A stretch of DNA of 44,512 nt from Bacillota bacterium. Lineage in GTDB: Bacteria; Bacillota; UBA994. Position 1 is the first letter of the stretch; the number at the start of each line of letters is the position of its first letter. The translations under genes and the position numbers were made by a program. The notes below the pieces were generated by a model. The model was given only the letters and a program-made list of their open reading frames with translations, had not been told where the DNA came from and searched no databases. The stretch is taken from positions 1-44,512 of the forward strand of contig JAGXTJ010000053.1 of assembly GCA_018333655.1 (NCBI GenBank), written 5' to 3'. Shown in pieces: positions 18,622 through 44,203 of this stretch.

Positions 18622-19577
18622 CTTACTTCCCCCCCCACCAGTCGTACATAGGCCTCCTCAAACGTTACAGACCGGATAGAAATTGCGGAAATAGTAGCCT
18701 CACAGTCATGCAGAACTGCTACCACACGAGGCAGAGCTGCTTCTGGGGAGTTGCTCTCGAACACAAGTTCTGTGCTGGAGTGTCTAATAAGTCTAGCAGC
18801 GGGTATTTCGGTGATATTGGCACGCAATTCCTCCGAGAAGCGCCCGCGAATTTCTATGACATCCCCACCCACCAACCTAGCCAAGTTACGGGGAGTGTCA
18901 CCCCGAACCAGTTGACCACCTTTTAGTACGAATGCCCAGTCACTAACGGCAGCCATCTCATGCAGATCATGCGTTGTCCACAATACCGTAGTTCCCTTGG
19001 ACGTCAGCTGACGCACCTTAGACCACAGGGTTCTTCTGCTCTCCGGATCGACGCTTGCTGTCGGTTCATCCATTACCAGAAGTGGTGGGTCAAGGAGCAA
19101 CGCTCTTACGATTTGGACCTTCCGGCTTTCGCCACCGGAGAGCATAATCATTGGCTGCTGGAGTACCTTTTCCAAGCCGAAATCCCGCAGTAATTCCCTT
19201 GCTTTGGTCTCACTGGCCGCGACTTCAAGCCCGCGCAATCGAATGTATATCTGTACATTGTCCCAGACGCTCAAGAAAGCATCGACGCCGCTGCGCTGGT
19301 GGACAATGGCAGTTTGACCTCTGATCTGCATCCCTTGAGTCCTCGGCGCTAATCCGAGTACCGTGACTTGTCCGGAATCGTAGCTGGTAACACCTAAGAT
19401 AATTTTAACCAGAGTGGTCTTTCCCGCGCCATTTGGCCCAGCCAAACCGACTAAGCTCCCCTTGGGAACCTCCAACGCAAGACCCGCAAGGGCTTGTGTC
19501 CGACCATACTTCTTCCAAACATCACTGATCGCGATTGCAACTGTGAGATTACTAGTCACCTGCATTTCTTCTCCCAT
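18618..19577 (-). CDS. ABC transporter ATP-binding protein
   Basis: 319 residues. The ABC domain has Walker A GPNGAGKTT near residue 44, signature LSGGESRKVQ, Walker B LLVMDEPTAS and a switch histidine in TTHDLHE. The extra roughly 90-residue C-terminus (after RLVGGDVIEIRG) is typical of drug and lantibiotic exporter ATPases of the CcmA type. The start is uncertain: ATG at 19577 or the ATG four codons on. With the permease it forms a two-gene exporter; each half-transporter would dimerise at the membrane. Confidence 0.92.
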   Translation of the reverse strand: MGEEMQVTSNLTVAIAISDVWKKYGRTQALAGLALEVPKGSLVGLAGPNGAGKTTLVKIILGVTSYDSGQVTVLGLAPRTQGMQIRGQTAIVHQRSGVDAFLSVWDNVQIYIRLRGLEVAASETKARELLRDFGLEKVLQQPMIMLSGGESRKVQIVRALLLDPPLLVMDEPTASVDPESRRTLWSKVRQLTSKGTTVLWTTHDLHEMAAVSDWAFVLKGGQLVRGDTPRNLARLVGGDVIEIRGRFSEELRANITEIPAARLIRHSSTELVFESNSPEAALPRVVAVLHDCEATISAISIRSVTFEEAYVRLVGGEVR

Positions 19578-19661
19578 ATAGGGAATATCTTTCCTTCACG
19601 CATGCCAATGAATGAGAAGCCCTTAGGACACACTTGCTTATCTCCAACATAAAGATGTACC

Positions 19662-20090
19662 CTAGCCATTGTGGAAGCTGGATTCTGACATAACTACGAG
19701 ATCGGGCATCCAGCTGTAGAGTGAAGATAGTTGCGCGATAAAATCATCCACGGTCATGAGGTCGCACATATGCATGTTCCCACCCCAATAGCGGTTGTGG
19801 CACTTCACAAAGCGGACTTCGCTTCCACCTTCCCAGTCGTGCGGAGCAACGGCAATGGCCTCCATTACATGGGGAAGCATGAATCCGCTCGTGAATACCA
19901 ATACACGCCTAGCCAAGCAAGATTTAATTAGCGACCCTAACGCAGATAAATACTGTGGCTTGAAAGTCTCTACTAAACACATGCCAAGAAGAAGCGTCGG
20001 GTCGACAGGATACCCCTTAGGGCGGTACGGGTAAGACGGTGCCATGTCTTCGGTTATTACTACCTCATCGACTCGCGCCAATCTGTCCAC
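19662..20090 (-). CDS. DUF512-like protein (possibly a gene fragment)
   Basis: 142 residues from GTG. The stretch VRFVKCHNRYWGGNMHMCDLM, then TVDDFIAQL, follows the pattern of DUF512 (V.N.FFG..V.VAGLLTG.DI..QL), a domain normally found after a radical-SAM/PDZ part. LVFTSGFMLPHV and a final SESSFHNG sit where DUF512 has its TG... and FLDG motifs. No radical-SAM domain is present. An in-frame TAA lies just before the GTG, and a well-placed AGGAGG-ATG 22 bp upstream is out of frame. A frameshifted remnant is therefore as likely as a short functional gene. Confidence 0.5.
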   Translation of the reverse strand: MDRLARVDEVVITEDMAPSYPYRPKGYPVDPTLLLGMCLVETFKPQYLSALGSLIKSCLARRVLVFTSGFMLPHVMEAIAVAPHDWEGGSEVRFVKCHNRYWGGNMHMCDLMTVDDFIAQLSSLYSWMPDLVVMSESSFHNG

Positions 20091-20111
20091 TTTATCTTAC
20101 CGTTCACACCA

Positions 20112-20321
20112 TTAATTTAACACCTCCTCTCTTATGGCATCGCCTAATTCTCCTAGCCAATTTACAGTTTCGTCTAAAGCCTTGTCTGCCGCATTTTGCT
20201 TCCATCCGTTTCCCGCGATAAGAACAAGCCTCTCAAAAACTCATACGGAAGCCTTTTTAGCTGTTCCGCTCGTATCCTTTGTAAAGGCTAATCTAAAAAT
20301 GAGCCAATACAGCCACTTTTG
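20112..20321 (-). pseudogene. Relic open frame interrupted by TGA
   Basis: Reading the minus strand in one frame gives 26 codons, an in-frame TGA (20241-20243), then 42 codons ending in the protein-like LDETVNWLGELGDAIREEVLN and TAA. No start codon exists in the second segment. Immediately after its stop come AGGAGG and ATG-GTG-TGA, the broken start of the next gene. The stretch looks like the 3' end of a decayed gene once co-transcribed with 19662-20090. The family is not recognised. The rest of the gap up to 20567 shows only the terminator hairpin. Confidence 0.45.
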
Positions 20322-20528
20322 CTAATTGAAAAGTGAGCCACTCCGACCAAAAATCCTGCATGCTTTGTTTGCGAAACTGAGCAAACGGAGCAATTCGGAG
20401 AGCTCGAAATGGCTCAATACAAGAATATCAGAAGAATGTGCACGATGAAGAGATGTCAGAGCGTTCCATCGCCGCATTGCCGGGCCTCTCCAGCAATAGC
20501 GTACGACAGGGAGGACCTGTGCGACAGA

Positions 20529-20559
20529 ACGCCCCACCAGCTTACCGCAGATGGGGCGT
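20529..20559 (-). terminator. Hairpin after the small membrane protein gene
   Basis: Stem ACGCCCCA/TGGGGCGT 9 bp beyond the stop codon of 20568-20945; the following minus-strand sequence TTCTGTC is only weakly U-rich. Confidence 0.5.
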
Positions 20560-20567
20560 GGCAAAGC

Positions 20568-20945
20568 TTACGCCTTTGAATGTGGTGCTCTAATCTTAGC
20601 AAGTGCTTTGCGGCATAACGCCCACATGAGCTCAGTTGCCGTGAATACCACTGTACCAGTACCAATCACCATTAATAGCTCATGCCAAAGAACAGCTGCC
20701 TCAATTAAATCGCTCTGCACCGCCAAAAGCATCGCAACGTTAGCCACCCAACATGAGGTACCAATGCGTCCTCCTCGTCTCCTTGTCTCAAGTCTCTTGG
20801 CATCGCTCGCGTCTTGTTCCACGCGCCCACGACGCACCAAATCTCTCACGATAAAAACTGTTAAGAGGACCATAGCGCCAGCACCTATCAACATCAGCAT
20901 TACCTGCCATAATTCTAGCTCCATGCCTCCCGTACCAATTACCAT
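20568..20945 (-). CDS. Small three-helix membrane protein, full-length copy
   Basis: 125 residues from the ATG at 20945. Hydrophobic segments near residues 8-32, 62-78 and 85-108 are separated by a basic, acidic linker (RDLVRRGRVEQDASDAKRLE) and RRGGRIG. It is nearly identical to 27147-27593 until ATELMW, after which the two tails differ completely. The ATG, not the GTG four codons earlier, is used because the GTG lies inside the ribosome binding site. It follows the secreted-protein gene 34 bp downstream and is probably co-transcribed with it. The family is not recognised; size and topology would suit an immunity or holin-like protein, which is speculation. Confidence 0.75.
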   Translation of the reverse strand: MVIGTGGMELELWQVMLMLIGAGAMVLLTVFIVRDLVRRGRVEQDASDAKRLETRRRGGRIGTSCWVANVAMLLAVQSDLIEAAVLWHELLMVIGTGTVVFTATELMWALCRKALAKIRAPHSKA

Positions 20946-20979
20946 TGATGAAGTCACCCCCTAATGCTTGGCCCCTTAT

Positions 20980-21669
20980 TCAGGGCACAGTGACTAATCC
21001 GGTATGCGGACACACATGAACAACGCTATGCCCTAGCGTAATTTGTTCGGTGTGGAATTTCCATACTACATTGGGGCAAATGTTGCCATGATGATCGATA
21101 TACGCGAGCGCGGTACCCCATGCAATAGAGAGCACCATAGCTGCCTGCCAACTATGCAAGCCTACTTGATAAAGAACCATCCACTGCGTGGTTTGCCACA
21201 ATACTACCCCAAACATGACTACAAGAGACCCAACATGAACCCCCTCTAACTCCGGGCTCGCGGTTACGACCTCCTTGGCAACACCTGTGAGGAGGCTAAC
21301 CGCCGTTATTCCGTCGGTAGCGCTACTTGCGCTTACTTCGTTTCCTGATTGCATTCCGCCCCTCTGCACTGCGACCATATCACGCACTTGACGGGCAGCA
21401 TCAACAACCACCAATACTGTAGACAAATCCGGGTTGTTAGTGCTAAACGCAATGATGTCCACGTTGCCCCGGTGTGCAACACGCGGGTCTATTAACATTG
21501 TACCCTCACGGCTGAGCGACTCCCGAATTGCCAGATATGTGCTGTTCTGCATCAGAGATGCTATAAGGCACTCGACTGTACCTACGGCTGACTCAGCTCT
21601 AGCAACAGGAATCATGATGGTATTTACCAAAATCACCAAAGAAAGGACTACAACTAAACACGCTTTCAT
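20980..21669 (-). CDS. Secreted or membrane protein of unknown function
   Basis: About 229 residues from the ATG at 21669, which gives a clean signal peptide (MKACLVVVLSLVILVNTIMIPVARA, cleavage after ARA). An upstream TTG at 21690 and an ATG at 21684 are alternatives with no better ribosome binding site. A second hydrophobic region lies near 145-185 (GSLVVMFGVVLWQTTQW..AAMVLSIAWGTALAYI). The C-terminus has a C-x23-C pair and several histidines (DHHGNICPN, HSVVHVCPHTG), possibly metal binding. I do not recognise the family. First gene of a two-gene unit with the small membrane protein. Confidence 0.7.
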   Translation of the reverse strand: MKACLVVVLSLVILVNTIMIPVARAESAVGTVECLIASLMQNSTYLAIRESLSREGTMLIDPRVAHRGNVDIIAFSTNNPDLSTVLVVVDAARQVRDMVAVQRGGMQSGNEVSASSATDGITAVSLLTGVAKEVVTASPELEGVHVGSLVVMFGVVLWQTTQWMVLYQVGLHSWQAAMVLSIAWGTALAYIDHHGNICPNVVWKFHTEQITLGHSVVHVCPHTGLVTVP

Positions 21670-21701
21670 CCAATCTTGCCCCATTCTCAAACATTAGCTA
21701 A

Positions 21702-21731
21702 ATTTTACCTCACCCCCCTCCGGACTGTCAA
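21702..21731 (-). promoter_or_regulatory. Promoter of the secreted/small membrane protein pair
   Basis: -35 TTGACA (21726-21731), 18-bp spacer containing a G6 tract, -10 TAAAAT (21702-21707). The G-rich spacer recalls promoter B of the protease modules, although the rest differs. Confidence 0.55.
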
Positions 21732-21799
21732 GCACATTTTGACATAATTCTTTATTACATTCTGACAATCAATCGAACCAATCAACTAAACTAATCGCC

Positions 21800-22400
21800 G
21801 AGCAGACTGGGGCGCCCCCCTCCAGTCCTTCACACAACCGGACGTGAGCCTCTCGATTCATCCGGCTCGTGTCATCTGGCTTGCGGTAGTCTCCTTACGC
21901 ACTCCAGCGGGCAAAGAGTTTTACGTCTCGCTGGGCGACTTTACTTATCCAGCATGCTTCATGTCTTTGTGTCCTATGGAGATTCCGTACTTTCTTCCGC
22001 CTCCACTTTATAAGCGTCTTGTTTTTGATGACATCTTGATATTTCGATACTTCAACAAAGGTTCAGATTCCTTGGGGAATTTCAGTATTGATTGAAATTC
22101 TATTCGTCTCCGCAGTACTCACCTGCCGGAGTCTCTGCCCCCACTTTCCCCCTAACGCTCACCACCTCAGCCTGTGACTGAAGCAGTTTAGGGTGGTTTG
22201 AAGTCTCCACCTGCATGGCGACTCCCTCATCCTTTGTGCAACATGGTTGCAGTCGCGCTAACTGGGGAATTTCTGTGCCTACGGCTTTCATAAACTATTC
22301 CACATCCGTCCATGCTTTCCTGCCGCGTGTGCTACCTCCCTACTACATAGTAACAACTGAGCGACATCTTGCTCTATCAGTGCTTCGCCGCCAAGGATAG
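21800..22400 (-). mobile_element. Group II intron remnant without reverse transcriptase
   Basis: On the minus strand 21834-21868 reads GAGCCGGATGAATCGAGAGG and onward to CACGTCCGGTTGT. This is the domain V hairpin, with the AGC catalytic triad, a GAGA-type tetraloop, a 2-nt bulge and closing GAGCCGG/CCGGTT strands. A G-rich hairpin GGACTGG/CCAGTC follows as in domain VI. About 530 bp upstream of it contain no gene for an intron-encoded protein, and no clear GTGYG 5' end was found. Boundaries are approximate. Confidence 0.65.
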
Positions 22401-22467
22401 GCAGGAGTACGGAAAGGGGCAGAGAAATATCTGACAAGACCCTAAGTGAAAATGAGGAGTGAGGCCT

Positions 22468-24495
22468 GTGCAGAAACGCATGCTAGTTCCCCCCGACCTA
22501 CTTGCCTTAGCTTACCCGGGTGACATCGCTGTCTCGCCGAACGGGGAGTTAGTGGCCTATACTGTGACTCGCCTCGACCAAGACAAGGACGAGAGTAAGA
22601 CGGACCTCTACCTCTTTGAATTTGGCAGCGGGAACAGTCGGCGCCTCACCTACGGCGGCAAGGAGGGCAAGGGTTGTTTCTCGCCTGATAGCAGTCGTCT
22701 CGCCTTTGTTTCCGGGCGTGACGGCAAGAGCCAAATCTACATCATCGAGCTAGCGTTCGGGGGCGAGCCGTGGCGACTTACGACCGAAGAAAATGTTGCC
22801 GGCAACCTGTGTTGGTTCCCTTGCGGCACACGCCTTGCTTACAGTGCCAAAGTCTTTAGTCAGGAGGAAGGCTGGCAACCTTACCCGGGCGCGCCGGAGG
22901 GTGACTCCGCCAGGCTAAAGCACTTAGCCGACAAACCTCACGCAGACAAGCAGCCCGAGCCAGACAAAAAAGAGAACCTCGTTAAGGTAGTAACCCGTTT
23001 TAGCTACCGGCGCGACGGCAGCGGGTATTTCGGCGACGTGCGCGAACATGTCTTCGTGCGCGAAGTACCTATCGTGCCGCCGCAGTCGCCCTTGCCAGCG
23101 GAAGGGCGTCGGATCACAAGTGGGGATTTTGACTACACAAGCTGTGATGTGTCGCCCGACGGAAGCTGCATCGTAACGTCTGCGCGCCGCAGCAAAGACG
23201 CAGACTATGTGCTCGCGCGCGACCTGTGGGTGTTTCCAGTTGATGGGGGCACCGAGGAGCTGCTGTACGCCGCACCCAGCCCTACTAGCAACCCGCGCTT
23301 TTCTCCGTGCGGAGAGTATGTAAGTTTCCTCGGGCACGCAGGGGAGAGCGCGACCTCAACCACTACAGGGCTCTACTTGCTGCCTTTTTTTGGCCAAGAT
23401 CGATGCGCACATAGTGACGCGATAGCAGTCACCAAGCCCATCGACAGGCCCGCGCTTCCGGGGGGCTTTTGGCAAGGGAAGAGATTTGTGTTCCCTCTCG
23501 CCGATCAAGGCTGTGTGCACATCTATGCAGCGTCAGTAGATGGCACTGTGGAGGCCCTTCTGGCAGCGCAGCAGACTTCCTATTTATCTTTGGCCGGGGC
23601 AGGTAAGACCCTAGCCTACATTAAAGGTCGCTTTGACCTGTTGGAAGAAATATGGGCCTCGCGCGAAGGCGCAGAACGCGCGCTTACCGCTCACAACATG
23701 CAGGCGACGGCCGAGCTGCTGCTAGCTCCGGCCGAGCACATTGCCTTTGTCAGCGAGGACGGACAAGCGCTAGATGGGTGGCTCTTGTTACCCCCAGATC
23801 AGGCAGAGCAGACCGTGCACCCACTGATGCTATTCATCCATGGCGGGCCCCACGGCTGGTATGGACCACGCTTTATGCTCGATGCCCAAGTCTTTGCGGC
23901 TCTAGGCTATGCCGTGCTCCTGACTAACCCACGGGGAAGCGAGAGCTATGGTCAGCGTTTCGCTGATATTATCGATGGCAACTGGGGCGACCTCGACTGC
24001 GGCGATGTCTTGGCCGGTGTCAAGGCGGTGAACGCGCGCGGGGTTATCGACCAGTCGAAATTGTTCGCCCAAGGCTGGTCTTACGGCGGGTATCTCGCTT
24101 GCTGGCTGGTCACCAGGACCACCGAGTTTAACGCTGTTTGCGCCGGGGCACCGGTGTCTAACCTGCTTAGTGGCTACGGCACCTCCGACATCACCTTGGC
24201 CGACGAGCGCGAATACGGCGGCTCGCCTTGGGAAAGCGCCCCCCAGATGCTCCGCTCGTCCCCCGTCACTTTTGCTGACCGAGTCGAAACGCCCTTTATG
24301 TTGATGCACGGCGAGAACGACTTGCGCTGCCCCGTCAGCCAGAGCGAGGAATTCTACACAGCACTAAAAAGACAGGGTAAGGATGCGGTGCTGATTCGCT
24401 ACCCAGGCGAGTCCCATGGGCTCAAGCGCCCCCTGCATCGACTAGACAAACTTACGCGGCAGATAGCTTGGTTTGAGTATCACCGGCGTCGCTAG
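22468..24495 (+). CDS. S9 family peptidase (prolyl oligopeptidase / acylaminoacyl peptidase type)
   Basis: 675-residue cytosolic serine peptidase. The N-terminal two thirds form a beta-propeller with WD40-like TolB repeats (for example GDIAVSPNGELVAYTV, KGCFSPDSSRLAFVSGRDGK). The C-terminal alpha/beta hydrolase has LFIHGGPHGWY and the catalytic triad Ser538 (GWSYGGY), Asp618 (GENDLRCP) and His650 (GESHGL). It cleaves short peptides or N-acylated residues. The GTG at 22468 is chosen because GAGGAG is 8 bases upstream; a GTG three codons earlier lies within that site. It is plus-strand and convergent with the SDR gene. Confidence 0.93.
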   Translation: MQKRMLVPPDLLALAYPGDIAVSPNGELVAYTVTRLDQDKDESKTDLYLFEFGSGNSRRLTYGGKEGKGCFSPDSSRLAFVSGRDGKSQIYIIELAFGGEPWRLTTEENVAGNLCWFPCGTRLAYSAKVFSQEEGWQPYPGAPEGDSARLKHLADKPHADKQPEPDKKENLVKVVTRFSYRRDGSGYFGDVREHVFVREVPIVPPQSPLPAEGRRITSGDFDYTSCDVSPDGSCIVTSARRSKDADYVLARDLWVFPVDGGTEELLYAAPSPTSNPRFSPCGEYVSFLGHAGESATSTTTGLYLLPFFGQDRCAHSDAIAVTKPIDRPALPGGFWQGKRFVFPLADQGCVHIYAASVDGTVEALLAAQQTSYLSLAGAGKTLAYIKGRFDLLEEIWASREGAERALTAHNMQATAELLLAPAEHIAFVSEDGQALDGWLLLPPDQAEQTVHPLMLFIHGGPHGWYGPRFMLDAQVFAALGYAVLLTNPRGSESYGQRFADIIDGNWGDLDCGDVLAGVKAVNARGVIDQSKLFAQGWSYGGYLACWLVTRTTEFNAVCAGAPVSNLLSGYGTSDITLADEREYGGSPWESAPQMLRSSPVTFADRVETPFMLMHGENDLRCPVSQSEEFYTALKRQGKDAVLIRYPGESHGLKRPLHRLDKLTRQIAWFEYHRRR

Positions 24496-36370: not shown

Positions 36371-38197
36371 CTACTCAACAGTTACGCTTTTGGCCAGATT
36401 ACGCGGCTTGTCGACATCGGCTCCGCGCGCCACTGCCGCATAGTAGGCAATCAGTTGCAGTGGTATAACGGCGAGAATAGGCGCTAGTAGGGGGTCAAGG
36501 CCTGGCAGGCGAATTTCTACATCATGCAAAGTTTCTGTGACATGGGGGCTGCAATTTGTCACTACAAAGGTGCGCGCACCCCTAGCCCTCACTACCTCGA
36601 CATTGCTCACCATTTTCTCCTGCAAATGTTGCTGCGTGAACAGACATATGACAGGTGTCTGCGGTGAGACGAGCGCGAGGGTGCCATGCTTGAGCTCGCC
36701 AGCGGCATAAGCCTCGGCGTGAATGTAGGAGATTTCTTTAAGCTTTAAGGCTCCTTCGAGGGCCACGCTGTAGTCTAGGCCACGTCCGATGAAAAAGACG
36801 CTCTCACTTTGGGAGAGCCTTAGCGCGACATCGCGTATGGCGTCGGCCTGAGCAAGAATTTCTTCTACTAGACTGGGTATAGCCTTAAGTCCGGCGAGAA
36901 GTTCACCCGCTCGCGAGGAGGAAATGGCACCCCGAGCCAAACCGATATGAACGGCCATCAGCGTTAAGGCCGCTAACTGGGTTGTGTAAGCCTTAGTGGA
37001 GGCTACCGCTATCTCTGGCCCCGCCCAAGTGTAGAGCACATGCCTACTCTCCCGCGCGACCGAGCTGCCGACAACGTTAGTGATGGCGACCACACGACAC
37101 TTTTGCCTCTTGGCCTCCCGCAGTGCGGCCAGAGTATCGGCTGTTTCGCCCGATTGACTGATGATGATTACTAAGTCGCTCGGGTCAAGAATCGGTTCGC
37201 GATAACGAAACTCTGACGCCACATCGACTTCCACTGGCAGACGAGCGAGCTTTTCAATTAGGTTCTTGCCCACTAGCCCAGCATGGTAGGCAGTGCCACA
37301 GGCCACGATTACCACTCGCTTAACGGAGTCAATCAGCTCCTTGGTCAGCCCAATTTCCTCGGCGAGAGTGGTTTGGTCGTCGAGTAGGCGCGGCGAAACA
37401 GTGTCGCGCAAGGCTCGCGGCTGCTCATGAATCTCTTTAAGCATGAAGTGTGAGTAACCTGCCTTTTCAGCAGCTACTTCATCCCAAGTGATGTAGAGCG
37501 TTTCTTTCTTGATCTCTTGTCCGCCATTGTAGAATTTAACCTCACCGGCGGTTAGGACGGCTAAATCTCCATCCTCTAGCACTACCGTCTGACGAGTGTA
37601 GGGCAGTAAGGCGGGAATGTCTGAAGCCAGAAAATTCTCTCCCTCGCCCAGACCAATAATTAAGGGGCTATACTGGCGATAGGCCACCAAGGTCAGGGGG
37701 TCATGCTCAGACACCACGGCGATAGCGAACGCCCCCTGCATGCGCTTGGCCGCTTGCGCCACCGCCTGGCCTAAGTCACCCGCGTACTCTTCTTCGATCA
37801 GGTGGGGGATGACCTCGGTGTCGGTCTCCGAAAAGAACTCGTGCCCGCGACTTCTTAGCTCACGCCGCAGCTCGGCGTAGTTCTCAATAATGCCGTTATG
37901 CACCACGGCAAACTTGCCTCCGCAACCCATGTGCGGATGAGCATTGTCATCCGTCGGGGCGCCATGGGTGGCCCAGCGGGTGTGCCCGACGCCTAGGTGC
38001 GCCTTAGTCAGGCCATTGCCAGAGACCTTGTTTTCTAGAACGGAAAGTCTCCCCGCATATTTTTCTAGATGAAGCTTGCCGTTCTTGTGTAAGACTAAGC
38101 CTGCCGAGTCATATCCACGGTATTCTAACCGTCGTAAACCATCAAGTACCACATCTTGCGCGCTTCTCGCGCCTACGTAGCCGGCGATTCCACACAT
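36371..38197 (-). CDS. glmS: Glutamine-fructose-6-phosphate aminotransferase (isomerising)
   Basis: 608 residues. Makes glucosamine-6-phosphate from fructose-6-phosphate and glutamine, the entry step to peptidoglycan amino sugars. Cys2 of MCGIAGYVG is the amidotransferase nucleophile, and GDGYDSAG-like RLEYRGYDSAG follows. Two SIS domains bind the sugar phosphate (CGTAYHAGL, SQSGETADTLA), and the C-terminus ends KPRNLAKSVTVE as usual. The start is fixed by the required Cys2 and by GGAGAG 7 bases upstream; five extra N-terminal residues in the longer frame are rejected. Controlled by the ribozyme in its leader. Confidence 0.98.
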   Translation of the reverse strand: MCGIAGYVGARSAQDVVLDGLRRLEYRGYDSAGLVLHKNGKLHLEKYAGRLSVLENKVSGNGLTKAHLGVGHTRWATHGAPTDDNAHPHMGCGGKFAVVHNGIIENYAELRRELRSRGHEFFSETDTEVIPHLIEEEYAGDLGQAVAQAAKRMQGAFAIAVVSEHDPLTLVAYRQYSPLIIGLGEGENFLASDIPALLPYTRQTVVLEDGDLAVLTAGEVKFYNGGQEIKKETLYITWDEVAAEKAGYSHFMLKEIHEQPRALRDTVSPRLLDDQTTLAEEIGLTKELIDSVKRVVIVACGTAYHAGLVGKNLIEKLARLPVEVDVASEFRYREPILDPSDLVIIISQSGETADTLAALREAKRQKCRVVAITNVVGSSVARESRHVLYTWAGPEIAVASTKAYTTQLAALTLMAVHIGLARGAISSSRAGELLAGLKAIPSLVEEILAQADAIRDVALRLSQSESVFFIGRGLDYSVALEGALKLKEISYIHAEAYAAGELKHGTLALVSPQTPVICLFTQQHLQEKMVSNVEVVRARGARTFVVTNCSPHVTETLHDVEIRLPGLDPLLAPILAVIPLQLIAYYAAVARGADVDKPRNLAKSVTVE

Positions 38198-38239
38198 GCC
38201 GCAACTCTCCATTTCAGTACATAATTAAACTAGGGTACC

Positions 38240-38374
38240 CCTATTTTGTCCGCCCGATTGCTCGGCCGTTTTCAAAGAGGGTTTACAGCCACCCCTAATG
38301 GCTGGAGGGCATCCGCCGATAATCGATAAACCCCCACCTCGTCAGCCTCAAGCTACTGCTAAGGCTCAGGCGCT
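38240..38374 (-). ncRNA. glmS ribozyme (GlcN-6-P-activated self-cleaving riboswitch)
   Basis: Minus-strand RNA matches the glmS ribozyme core in order. It has the cleavage-site A then GCGCC (38374/38373), GACGAGG-TGGGGGTTTATCGA, TTATCGGCGGATGCC, a variable hairpin, GTAAACCC and a final GGACAAAA (about 38243). Binding of glucosamine-6-phosphate triggers cleavage 5' of the G, and the downstream RNA with a 5'-OH is then degraded by RNase J in Bacillus. The 3' border is approximate. The 5' end lies inside glmM: the cleavage site falls in codon 443 of glmM. Confidence 0.95.
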
Positions 38375-39700
38375 TACGCTAGATAGCACATCAACTACGA
38401 CGCTCGCTGCTTGCGAAGCGAGCTCTTTTGTCCTGGCCTCGACCATGACCCGCACGAGCGGCTCAGTGCCTGAAGGCCGCACCAAGACCCTACCCTCTGT
38501 TCCTACCATATTCTCTGCCCTAACTATCGCCTCCTTTACCGCGCCATGCTCCATGCTGGCCTTTTTGTCCCTGACGGGGACATTAAGTAGTATCTGCGGA
38601 AATCGCTCTAGCTTATCTGCCAACGCTTCTAGTGACACGCCGCGGCCAAAAGTGGCCTTAAGCAGCATCACCGCGGTCAACAGACCGTCGCCCGTAGTGC
38701 TGTGATTAAGAAAGATGCAATGCCCCGACTGCTCTCCCCCCAAAACTGCGCCTACTTGCTTCATTTCTTGCAAGACATACCTATCGCCAACCGCAGAACG
38801 CGTAATACCTATATCTTCTCGCCTCAGGCAGGCGTCAAGACCAAAGTTGCTCATGACCGTGGCCACCACCAAGTTATGGGTGAGGCTCTTCTCGGCCTTG
38901 AGGAGCAGCCCACAAATGTGCAGGAGATCGTCGCCATCTAGTAGCTGGCCCCGCGCATCGCAGGCGATTAATCGGTCGGCGTCGCCATCAAAAGCGAGCC
39001 CCACCTGTGCACCATGCGCGAGGACGGCTTGCACCATGGCGGCCGGGTAAGTAGACCCACATTCTACATTGATATTTACGCCATCGGGAGAAATGTTAAG
39101 CGGCACTACCTCGGCACCTAGCATGGTCAGTACCCGCGGCGCCACATCAAAGGCGGCACCATGCGCCGCATCGACGACGATTTTTACCCCCGTTAGATCA
39201 AGGTCCGCTATCTTTAACAAGTAATCTACATAGGCCTCTTGCTCAGTATCACCGCGAAACATCCGACCCACTTTATCCCCCGCTACTCTTTCGCGGCCAC
39301 ACGCTGCCTGTACCTGGCGTTCGATTTCGTCCTCGACGGCATCGGGCAGCTTATACCCATCTCGCGTAAATAGCTTAATGCCGTTGTCTATGGCCGGGTT
39401 GTGCGAGGCCGAGATCATGACACCAGCTGTAGCCTGACCTAGCCGCGTAATATAGGCTAAAGCCGGCGTGGGCAAGACCCCTAAATCTACTACATCCGCC
39501 CCAGCGGACAAAACCCCGGCGGCAAAGGCCGACGCTAGCATGTCGCCTGAGATGCGTGTATCTCTCGCCATGTAGACTACTGCGCGAGATGAACTATCGT
39601 TTAACACAGCAATTGTTGCTCTACCTAGACGCAAAGCCAACTCGGGTGTGAGCTCCGTATTAGCCTTGCCTCTTACTCCGTCCGTACCAAATATGCGCAT
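38366..39700 (-). CDS. glmM: Phosphoglucosamine mutase
   Basis: 444 residues. Converts glucosamine-6-P to glucosamine-1-P. The phosphorylated Ser99 lies in ISASHNP, the metal loop in AFDGDADR near residue 239, and the C-terminal phosphate loop in VRPSGTEP. The ATG of MRIFGTDG is chosen (AAAGGAG 8 bases upstream). The last codons GTA-AGC-GCC-TGA form the 5' edge of the glmS ribozyme, so glmM and glmS share sequence and must share a transcript unless a promoter lies within glmM. Confidence 0.97.
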   Translation of the reverse strand: MRIFGTDGVRGKANTELTPELALRLGRATIAVLNDSSSRAVVYMARDTRISGDMLASAFAAGVLSAGADVVDLGVLPTPALAYITRLGQATAGVMISASHNPAIDNGIKLFTRDGYKLPDAVEDEIERQVQAACGRERVAGDKVGRMFRGDTEQEAYVDYLLKIADLDLTGVKIVVDAAHGAAFDVAPRVLTMLGAEVVPLNISPDGVNINVECGSTYPAAMVQAVLAHGAQVGLAFDGDADRLIACDARGQLLDGDDLLHICGLLLKAEKSLTHNLVVATVMSNFGLDACLRREDIGITRSAVGDRYVLQEMKQVGAVLGGEQSGHCIFLNHSTTGDGLLTAVMLLKATFGRGVSLEALADKLERFPQILLNVPVRDKKASMEHGAVKEAIVRAENMVGTEGRVLVRPSGTEPLVRVMVEARTKELASQAASVVVDVLSSVSA

Positions 39701-39754: not shown

Positions 39755-40678
39755 CTAAGGGCTTTTGGTCACGAGCAGCTGCACGCTTACCGTGGGCGAC
39801 GACACTAAGAAAGTCCCTCTGGGCACGCCCACAACTACCTCTCGGGTCTCGTCCTCCGCTGTCCCCTCGATGTTAACTTCTATGACTATCTCAGAAAGCC
39901 CCGCTAAGACCTCGGGCGGTGCGGCGACCTCTACTGTGGCGGTCGCACTTTCTAGTCGCACGCTTTGCACAAGGGGAGCCGGCCGCCCCACAGCAACGAA
40001 CCGCAGTGGCAGAACCTTGATGGGGTATATGGGCTGCACATACTGTATGCTCGGGGGGTTAAGGGTGACCTTTGGCACCACCTGCCCTAAGGAATCCTTG
40101 GCCTCCAGCACACGACTACTCTCTATGGTAGAGGTTTTGCCGGTAACATCTACCTCTACAACTACCGGAACCACCTGCCCTACGGCAGTGCTCCCCCCAA
40201 AAACGGTGACACTAGCCGGACCTACCACGCCTGGGGCCGCAAAATACCCCGGGGCTAGAGTGCCTCGCAGCACGAGCGACACCGGAAGATTCACAGCGGT
40301 GACCGGTTCGAGCATGACTTCCACCCGTGCCGGAGACACACCGACCACTTCTAAACCCGCGGGCGCGTCGACGCGCACCGCCAACTGATTGCTGCCCGCT
40401 CGAAGACCGCGCAGGTCGATGTAGACAATAAGGTCACGCGCCGTGACCGCCGCCAATACCTCGTCCGGGGCGCGCACGGTCAGAGAAACTGTCGGGACGA
40501 TAGCGCTGACTAGCTCTAGGTCGGCGGGGCGATTGCGAACTTCAAGCGTCACCGCAGGAAAACGCTGCACCGGAATATCTTCTGGTTGTACGCGAACTTG
40601 GGTGGATTGCACATAGAACCATAGTACGAGGGCTAAACCTATCGCCAAGACGTGGGTGCCTATATCGCGCCTGTTCAC
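39755..40678 (-). CDS. cdaR: YbbR-domain protein, regulator of CdaA
   Basis: 307 residues. One N-terminal membrane helix (HVLAIGLALVLWFYVQ) is followed by an extracellular region of about three to four YbbR repeats, each seen as a VxxV.VP...PA.VEV or PxxVxV pattern (for example PARVEVMLEPV, PPSIQYVQPIYPI). In Bacillus and Listeria CdaR binds CdaA and tunes c-di-AMP synthesis. GTG start overlaps the cdaA stop in the 4 bases GTGA. Short of the longest homologues, but complete in design. Confidence 0.92.
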   Translation of the reverse strand: MNRRDIGTHVLAIGLALVLWFYVQSTQVRVQPEDIPVQRFPAVTLEVRNRPADLELVSAIVPTVSLTVRAPDEVLAAVTARDLIVYIDLRGLRAGSNQLAVRVDAPAGLEVVGVSPARVEVMLEPVTAVNLPVSLVLRGTLAPGYFAAPGVVGPASVTVFGGSTAVGQVVPVVVEVDVTGKTSTIESSRVLEAKDSLGQVVPKVTLNPPSIQYVQPIYPIKVLPLRFVAVGRPAPLVQSVRLESATATVEVAAPPEVLAGLSEIVIEVNIEGTAEDETREVVVGVPRGTFLVSSPTVSVQLLVTKSP

Positions 40679-41490
40679 ACTCTCGCCCCCCACGAAAAAA
40701 TAGAAGTTGCTTGGGTGGCGGGCAGGGCCGCGTGTAGCCGGCGCTCGAGCTCGGCGAGGTCGAGATGGCGGGCAAGCTCTCCGCCTTGCGCCAAGGAAAT
40801 AGAGCCTGTTTCTTCAGACACTACTACCGCCAAAGCGTCTGTTTCCTCGGTGAGGCCAAGGGCAGCGCGATGGCGGGTACCTAGTTCTTGCTCAATTTCG
40901 GGATTGGAAGAAAGGGGCAGGTAACAGCCCGCCGCTGAAAGACGCCCTTGGCGAATAATAACTGCCCCGTCGTGCAGCGGGGTATTGGGCACGAAGATAT
41001 TGAACAACAGCTCGGGTGTAACTACCGCGTCAATGCGGACGCCTGTATCCGAATACTCCGAAAGGCCACTTTCCCGCTCAATAATAATCAGCGCCCCCGT
41101 ACTGCTCTTGCTAAGTGCACCGGCAGCCTGCGCAATTGCCGCCGCTACCGGTGTCTGGTCCGTGGCCGTCATAAGGCTAAACCCTTTGCCCAAAAACTTA
41201 GTACGACCTAAGTGCTCTAAGGCCCGTCGCAGTTCGGGCCAGAACAGAAGAGGTATGGCGATAAAAAGCGCTGAAATGGCCCTACTTAATATCCAGTTAA
41301 GGGTTGTCAGGCGGAGACTGTCGCTAAGGAGAGTAGCTCCTAAAAGCACTACTACGCCCTTAATAAGCTGTACGGCTCGCGTGTGCCGTAGTAACAGAAT
41401 GAGCCTGTAAAACACATAGTACAAAATGGCTATCTCCAGTAGGTCGAGGATACGCACCTCGAGCAGAATCTGTTCTAGAGTTGCCCACAT
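40675..41490 (-). CDS. cdaA: Diadenylate cyclase CdaA
   Basis: 271 residues. Joins two ATP into c-di-AMP. Three N-terminal membrane helices lie within residues 15-85. The DAC domain follows with LHDGAVIIRQG (DGA motif, metal and ATP) near residue 176, and GTRHRAALG (RHR motif) near residue 208. It sits between the TPR gene and cdaR, in the conserved cdaA-cdaR-glmM-glmS order. Confidence 0.96.
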   Translation of the reverse strand: MWATLEQILLEVRILDLLEIAILYYVFYRLILLLRHTRAVQLIKGVVVLLGATLLSDSLRLTTLNWILSRAISALFIAIPLLFWPELRRALEHLGRTKFLGKGFSLMTATDQTPVAAAIAQAAGALSKSSTGALIIIERESGLSEYSDTGVRIDAVVTPELLFNIFVPNTPLHDGAVIIRQGRLSAAGCYLPLSSNPEIEQELGTRHRAALGLTEETDALAVVVSEETGSISLAQGGELARHLDLAELERRLHAALPATQATSIFSWGARV

Positions 41491-42993: not shown

Positions 42994-43614
42994 CTAACGC
43001 CACGCCCCTCTTAAGTAGGAGCGCAATTCTTGACTGATGTTACGGAAACCAAAGACAAATTTGTCCCATGGCAAATGCGTCTGTCGCACAACCTGCCCTT
43101 GCACCCTGCCCTGTTCGCCTAGAGTATGCTCGCTCGAAATAAGATAAATATTTCCATCCACTCGACCTAGCACCCGGAGCGATGCATGGTAGACCCTCAG
43201 GTCGCCACTCACAACTACATCTTCAGGGACAATGACGCTTTGCCCGACAATGTGCACAGCGGCGCGTGCGTCAGTAGACTCAACAAAAGGCTGCGGGTGC
43301 TCTACTAACATATACGTTGGAAAGCCAAAAAACAAGAGCATAATCGCTGCCACGCCGACCGCTCGCCAGGGCAACCACGAGTTACTAAATCTCTCTGTAG
43401 TCGGTAAGCACTTAATAAGGGAGCGGGTAAAATCAGCGGGGGCTTTGACACTCGTTATGCATTTGAGACCCTGCTCAATCTCCCTAAGTTGCGCGACATA
43501 GCCTTGGCAGGGCGCACAACTGCAGGCGTGTTCATTCATCGCCGCGACAAGGCCTCTAGGTAGTGCTGTAGTATCTTGCTCTAGAGCGAGTTGGCGGTAC
43601 TTACTGCAGTCCAT
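42994..43614 (-). CDS. Zinc-finger anti-sigma factor with bactofilin-like outer domain
   Basis: 206 residues from MDCSKYRQL. The ZAS zinc motif is HACSCAPC (Hx3Cx2C) near residues 28-35. A membrane helix follows near 90-108 (VGVAAIMLLFFGFPTYML). The outer part, VVVSGDLRVYHASLRVLGRVDGNIYLISSEHTLGEQGRVQGQV, has the short beta-helix pattern of bactofilins. It probably holds the upstream ECF sigma factor at the membrane until an envelope signal. The start ATG has AAGGGGGT 7 bases upstream and overlaps the sigma gene by 14 bp. Confidence 0.87.
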   Translation of the reverse strand: MDCSKYRQLALEQDTTALPRGLVAAMNEHACSCAPCQGYVAQLREIEQGLKCITSVKAPADFTRSLIKCLPTTERFSNSWLPWRAVGVAAIMLLFFGFPTYMLVEHPQPFVESTDARAAVHIVGQSVIVPEDVVVSGDLRVYHASLRVLGRVDGNIYLISSEHTLGEQGRVQGQVVRQTHLPWDKFVFGFRNISQELRSYLRGAWR

Positions 43615-44203
43615 ATCTCTTACCCCCTTGGGATTCTTCATAGTAGCCCTGCTCCACCAAGAGCTGCCGCAGCGCTTCGCGCGCGCGATGTAGCCGCGTC
43701 TTGACAGTGGTAGAGGGGACACTGAGTATATTGGCTATTTCTTCATAAGACAAGTCCTCCACAAAGCGTAGCACCAAGACCATACGATAAAGTGGGTTCA
43801 ACTGAAGCAAGGCTCGCTCGAGCGCGCCTTCTAAATCCTTAAACTCTGCCACTTCTTCGGGCAAAGGATCGCTACTCTCAAGCTGCCAGACGCGATCATC
43901 GTCGCCGCTCAAGGGCTCATCTAAGTATACTATTTTCTTTTTGCGGCGCAAAAAATCAATGGCGAGATTCTGCGCAATGCGGTAGAGCCAGGGTGAAAAA
44001 CGCATGTTGCTGTCAAAGGCGTGAAAGTTGCTGTAGACCTTGAGGAAGACATCCTGCGCTAGATCATAGGCATCTTCACGATTGCCTGTCATACGAAAGA
44101 GAAAGGATACCATGCGGTCCTTATAGAGTTCCACTAATTCGGCAAAAGCATGAATGTCTCTTTGCTTGGCTCTACTGACCAGTGACTTTTCCACTAAATC
44201 CAC
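43601..44203 (-). CDS. ECF RNA polymerase sigma factor, SigW type
   Basis: 200 residues. Region 2 (MVSFLFRMTGNREDAYDLAQ DVFLKVY, ending near FSPWLYRIAQNLAIDFLRRK) binds the -10. Region 4 (LNPLYRMVLVLRFVEDLSYE, then EIANILSVPSTTVKTRLHRAR) binds the -35. No extra domains. Its order with the ZAS anti-sigma gene and then cdaA, cdaR, glmM and glmS is that of sigW-rsiW in Bacillus. GTG start with GAGGT 9 bases upstream. A matching promoter lies directly upstream, so it is likely autoregulated. Confidence 0.93.
   Translation of the reverse strand: MDLVEKSLVSRAKQRDIHAFAELVELYKDRMVSFLFRMTGNREDAYDLAQDVFLKVYSNFHAFDSNMRFSPWLYRIAQNLAIDFLRRKKKIVYLDEPLSGDDDRVWQLESSDPLPEEVAEFKDLEGALERALLQLNPLYRMVLVLRFVEDLSYEEIANILSVPSTTVKTRLHRAREALRQLLVEQGYYEESQGGKRYGLQ

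Follow-up and report, generated by a model that had tools for sequence, protein, structure and literature searches.

By their usual description, glmS ribozymes act on the downstream gene, and the 5′ product of their cleavage is normally a disposable leader. The survey of McCown, Roth and Breaker in 2011 is reportedly a key one for these ribozymes. The ribozyme analysed here shares with those of B. subtilis and other Bacillota its core, helices P1 to P4, its place before glmS and downstream of cdaA-cdaR-glmM, and an accompanying RNase J. However, in the Bacillota surveyed that have glmM upstream of the ribozyme, its stop codon stands a median of 117 nt before the cut, whereas here the cut falls inside glmM. 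Unlike in those loci, moreover, the glmM stop codon belongs to the ribozyme core.

Two further kinds of system are comparable. In arfA of E. coli and brfA of B. subtilis, a site in the coding sequence before the stop codon leads to a stop-less mRNA and trans-translation, an outcome that we would predict for glmM as well. In those two genes the end is made by RNase III or a terminator and the product is a rescue factor; here, by contrast, a metabolite-triggered ribozyme would make the end, in a metabolic gene. Bacterial operons that have lost spacers likewise show short overlaps of neighbouring functional elements, although there the overlapping partner is no catalytic RNA with its cut site in the shared stretch. 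Our literature search, mostly of journals open without subscription, recognised no paper on a glmS ribozyme that cuts inside the upstream gene or on a link between glmS ribozymes and rescue by tmRNA. We regard this arrangement of a classical ribozyme as conserved and apparently undescribed, and its novelty as provisional given the journals covered.

The ribozyme and the end of glmM

The window, a 44,512-nt stretch from a Bacillota bacterium (contig JAGXTJ010000053.1), yielded one full-length glmS ribozyme in an Rfam search (RF00234; 38385-38227, minus strand). The match spans model positions 1-167 and scores 93.9 bits (E 1.1e-20) against a gathering score of 37. The core is complete, with the cut site A(-1)^GCGCC, the conserved GACGAGG at 38337..38343 (-) placed by Rfam alignment and core pattern, and the UCGGCGGAUG core. 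The pattern AGCGCCTGA...GACGAGG occurs once in the window and in none of 100 shuffles. The ribozyme precedes glmS (608 aa, 36371..38197, minus strand; TIGR01135, 811 bits), which begins ATG-TGT, giving an N-terminal Cys, with GGAGAG just upstream; a start at 38212, opening a 613-aa reading frame, is less likely than the one at 38197.

Helix P1 with its loop occupies 38344..38366 (-) and is supported by compensatory changes among the genomes of the family. Pairs 2, 4 and 5 change between genomes and still pair (G-C or U-A at pair 2, four kinds of pair at pair 5), with one mismatch each in G001 and G004. Because pairing has been kept through such changes, the ribozyme is under selection and no relic. 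In the seven further genomes of the family the ribozyme scores between 81 and 101 bits. Judged by its sequence, the ribozyme is a plain RF00234 member, and self-cleavage in response to GlcN6P is presumed. P1 also varies in size: in G004 (L030) an insertion of ~100 nt forms a long structured stem, and smaller expansions occur in the relatives G003, G005 and G006, with repeated CTAGCATAGCGAGATGGT-like units in G003 and G005. Separately, two glmS ribozymes were found in one genome in G037 (L016, L042), and likewise in G312, G345 and G360.

The upstream gene, glmM, encodes a phosphoglucosamine mutase of 444 aa (38366..39700, minus strand; TIGR01455, 541 bits). It runs for 444 codons from the ATG at 39700 to the TGA at 38366 and ends ...GTA AGC GCC TGA, codon 443 (AGC) lying at 38374-38372 and codon 444 (GCC) at 38371-38369. 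Alignment of the core A^GCGCC to the Rfam consensus places model position 13, G(+1), at 38373. The scissile bond is thus A(-1) 38374 / G(+1) 38373 (minus strand), with 12 nt of the match standing 5′ of it, and it splits codon 443 after the first base (A^GC). By reading frame and Rfam alignment, the stop codon TGA (38366..38368, minus strand) is ribozyme nucleotides +6 to +8; the cut lies 5 nt 5′ of it, and helix P1 begins, at +8, with the final base of this codon, A8. Sequence and the family's known cut site together therefore put an RNA end-forming site inside glmM, ahead of its stop codon.

A preliminary description of this DNA had reported a clear ribozyme core, a cut site coinciding with glmM AGC-GCC-TGA, and cleavage after the first base of codon 443. 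All three hold: the core pattern is single and the match full-length, and the coordinates agree to the base. The span given there, 38240-38374, is slightly shorter than the Rfam match.

Stop positions in the family and across Bacillota

How widespread is this register? Using Infernal coordinates, we measured the distance from glmM stop to cut for 168 distinct glmS ribozymes of the same phylum, 149 of which have glmM directly upstream. High-scoring ribozymes are over-represented in this sample, which also contains all 8 family genomes, so the frequencies are approximate. The distance has a median of 117 nt among the 149, and in only 8 of them does the cut take away or split the stop codon. Seven of these come from two genera of the family to which the window belongs (G000-G002; G003, G005-G007), and each of the seven has its TGA at +6, so that 7/8 family genomes share the register. 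An assembly or frameshift artefact was rejected, since seven genomes have the same register and the GlmM proteins of the other six are only 61-71% identical to that of the window. The overlap is real and conserved within one bacterial family.

The eighth member, G004, represents a third genus, and its glmM ends with a TAA at -3 that directly abuts the cut. The single case outside the family is G038, in which the cut splits a TAG (TA^G); in G117, a member of the same family as G038, the stop stands at -17. Another search, which covered the class of G362, added one further TA^G case, G195; in its congeners G074, G324 and G415 glmM ends with TAA at -4. In genus g65 (L328, L337, L339, L342) the stop is at -4 in three genomes and at -2 in one. 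A wider scan with the pattern AAGCGCCTGA gave, among the matches listed, no further overlap except two family-like loci, in which the sequence around the cut is identical to that of family members G001 and G002. A survey of glmM stops near glmS ribozymes had been proposed earlier; the one made here shows the overlap in 7/8 family genomes, a stop kept before the cut in the sister genus, and scatter in other lineages.

Did the protein change, or the spacing? In the overlapping genomes the GlmM tail after SGTE is 35 aa. Counted from RPSGTEP it is 37 aa in the family, and the median in 126 other GlmM proteins is also 37. This match indicates that the spacer was lost and the protein not altered, and we rejected an extension or truncation of the GlmM end. 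Only genus g65, where the stop is mostly at -4, has a longer tail (42 aa). We note g65 as a second lineage with spacer loss, its GlmM having ~6 extra C-terminal residues.

The ribozyme itself can provide a stop codon. In the frame AGC-GCC-NGA, a UGA at +6 to +8 is offered by 41/168 ribozymes (25%), and in another frame 25/165 offer a stop at -2. The base at position 6 is bulged, and changing it has hardly any effect on activity (PMC7125110). That frequency and this near-free position imply that the core readily supplies a stop once the spacer is gone. In the ancestor of the family, the glmM-glmS spacer would have been lost until the UGA at +6 to +8 became the glmM stop. Selection for the overlap as such was considered and set aside: the glmM stops found, at -12, -11, -10, -9, -6, -4, -3, -2 and +6, suggest spacers shrinking to zero, without special excess beyond the cut. 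We favour, at a probability of roughly 60%, a reading in which a normal GlcN6P-responsive ribozyme sits in an operon that has lost a spacer, and the resulting loss of GlmM is a tolerated, moderate side effect and no selected switch.

Transcription of the probable operon and the predicted fate of cut glmM

The conserved set begins with the diadenylate cyclase gene cdaA (40675..41490, minus strand; TIGR00159, 248 bits), followed by cdaR (39755..40693, minus strand; Pfam YbbR, 74.8 bits), glmM and glmS. A consensus scan of the minus strand saw nothing resembling a sigma-70 site in cdaA, cdaR, glmM or the ribozyme, although the same scan does pick up a 12/12 site at 34590-34561 (-). In B. subtilis these four genes form an operon (PMC6171935), and here too they look like one. 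From these two observations, co-transcription of glmM and glmS is likely.

Several elements nearby deserve mention. Directly ahead of cdaA stand, in this order, an ECF sigma factor gene, a probable anti-sigma gene and a TPR gene; 43601-44203 (-) and 42994-43722 (-) make up the ECF/anti-sigma region, and Pfam gave only a sub-threshold bactofilin match for the anti-sigma. We take the pair before cdaA to recall sigW-rsiW before cdaA in B. subtilis. The 12/12 site is a perfect TTGACA-N18-TATAAT promoter after alr and before a ribbon-helix-helix antitoxin-like gene, a setting reminiscent of alr-ndoAI-ndoA of B. subtilis. A group II intron domain match (RF01999, 79 bits) lies at 22121-22238 (-), and no reverse transcriptase was evident among ORFs of at least 150 aa in 19500-22600.

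Among the observations named earlier as able to overturn the idea was a separate glmS promoter lying after the glmM stop and ahead of the ribozyme. Such a promoter is impossible here, because the stop lies inside the ribozyme; a glmS promoter or terminator of its own between the genes was likewise rejected for want of room and of a promoter-like site on that strand. The sole remaining escape is a promoter inside the glmM coding sequence. If glmS were transcribed mainly from there, the cut would rarely touch translatable glmM and would be of no consequence for GlmM. Cryptic promoters do escape consensus scans. Cleavage of B. subtilis glmS releases only a 25-nt leader (PMC11476745), so glmS has a nearby promoter in that species. 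However, the scan saw no sigma-70-like site on that strand from cdaA through the ribozyme, and the spacer that usually houses such a promoter is gone. We therefore consider this alternative quite improbable.

What would follow a cut under the by-product reading? The ribozyme would shut off glmS classically, by self-cleavage and then RNase J decay of the 5′-OH downstream piece. In B. subtilis, cleavage exposes glmS RNA to RNase J1 (PMC3997798, PMC11780869), and an RNase J is encoded in this genome (645 bits). Since no promoter dedicated to glmS is visible, the RNA being cut would mostly be the glmM-glmS co-transcript. Each cut would leave a glmM message without a stop, ending ...GUA-A (codon 442 plus one base). 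A ribosome arriving there would halt with a single base left beyond Val442 in its P site. The genome encodes tmRNA (170 bits) and SmpB (202 bits) side by side, and these would free such ribosomes and tag their GlmM. Given an operon-like context and a genome that encodes tmRNA, SmpB and RNase J, GlcN6P-dependent cleavage of the co-transcript would make glmM non-stop. We infer that the cleaved co-transcript is likely non-stop. Some non-stop glmM is the straightforward expectation, with cleavage in this organism, translation of the stop-less message and tagging as its presumed steps. The amount depends on co-transcription, on GlcN6P and on whether the terminating ribosome blocks ribozyme folding.

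This last point leads to another explanation, in which translation guards the ribozyme. A ribosome finishing glmM would cover the cut site and P1, cutting would occur only on poorly translated messages, and glmS shut-off would thereby be tied to glmM translation. The geometry suits this idea: the stop occupies +6 to +8, P1 starts at +8, and 5 nt separate the cut from the stop that follows it. P2.2, beside the cut, must form for activity (PMC7125110). The same geometry also counts against the by-product reading: termination at +6 to +8 places the ribosome over the cut site and over the 5′ strand of P1, so active glmM translation may keep the ribozyme unfolded and lower cleavage of translated messages. 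However, the glmS ribozyme cuts during transcription and fast, at about 80 per min (PMC11476745), and B. subtilis RNA polymerase outruns ribosomes, according to the passage of PMC7858274 that cites Johnson 2020. Together, these reports suggest that cutting may precede the first ribosome, and we hold a guarding role to be very unlikely.

Tolerated side effect or selected switch

The preliminary description went further and proposed a two-gene feedback switch. In this proposal one ribozyme controls two genes: GlcN6P triggers the cut, glmS RNA decays, glmM becomes non-stop, and tmRNA tagging lowers GlmM as an evolved feedback. A variant adds that lower GlmM relieves its reported effect on CdaA and so links GlcN6P to c-di-AMP. 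Several observations are in keeping with such a switch. The rescue machinery, tmRNA and SmpB, is present; programmed non-stop messages have the precedent of arfA and brfA (PMC8012679); GlmM is reported to modulate CdaA (PMC8537086). Moreover, the register is kept in 7/8 family genomes, and its retention at +6 across two genera would also be expected under selection for a switch.

That persistence can equally be common descent. The sister genus retains a stop codon just ahead of the cut (G004, TAA at -3), and other lineages scatter on both sides of it (G117 at -17; g65 at -4 in three and -2 in one), a variation which indicates that the non-stop state has been gained and lost. The logic of the circuit is also awkward: GlmM consumes GlcN6P, so its removal would amplify the signal and not relieve it. 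Finally, the stop at +6 is one that the ribozyme core offers anyway. Because near relatives keep the stop and a drop in GlmM would raise the trigger signal, the selected switch is not supported, and we think it unlikely. We judge a by-product of lost spacing to be more likely than a selected two-gene switch.

It is similarly doubtful that the ribozyme acts in earnest on the gene ahead of it as well as on the one behind, with glmM cut in codon 443, tmRNA removing new GlmM, and UDP-GlcNAc flux turned off together with glmS. If this were true, UDP-GlcNAc flux, and perhaps the effect of GlmM on CdaA and c-di-AMP, would be shut as one unit with glmS. Here the 5′ product of cleavage would be the message of a complete enzyme, losing its stop codon. 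The family and its sister genus, with the stop just before the cut, form a ready-made natural experiment. Should non-stop glmM really be produced, ribosome rescue gives natural ribozymes a way to control upstream genes.
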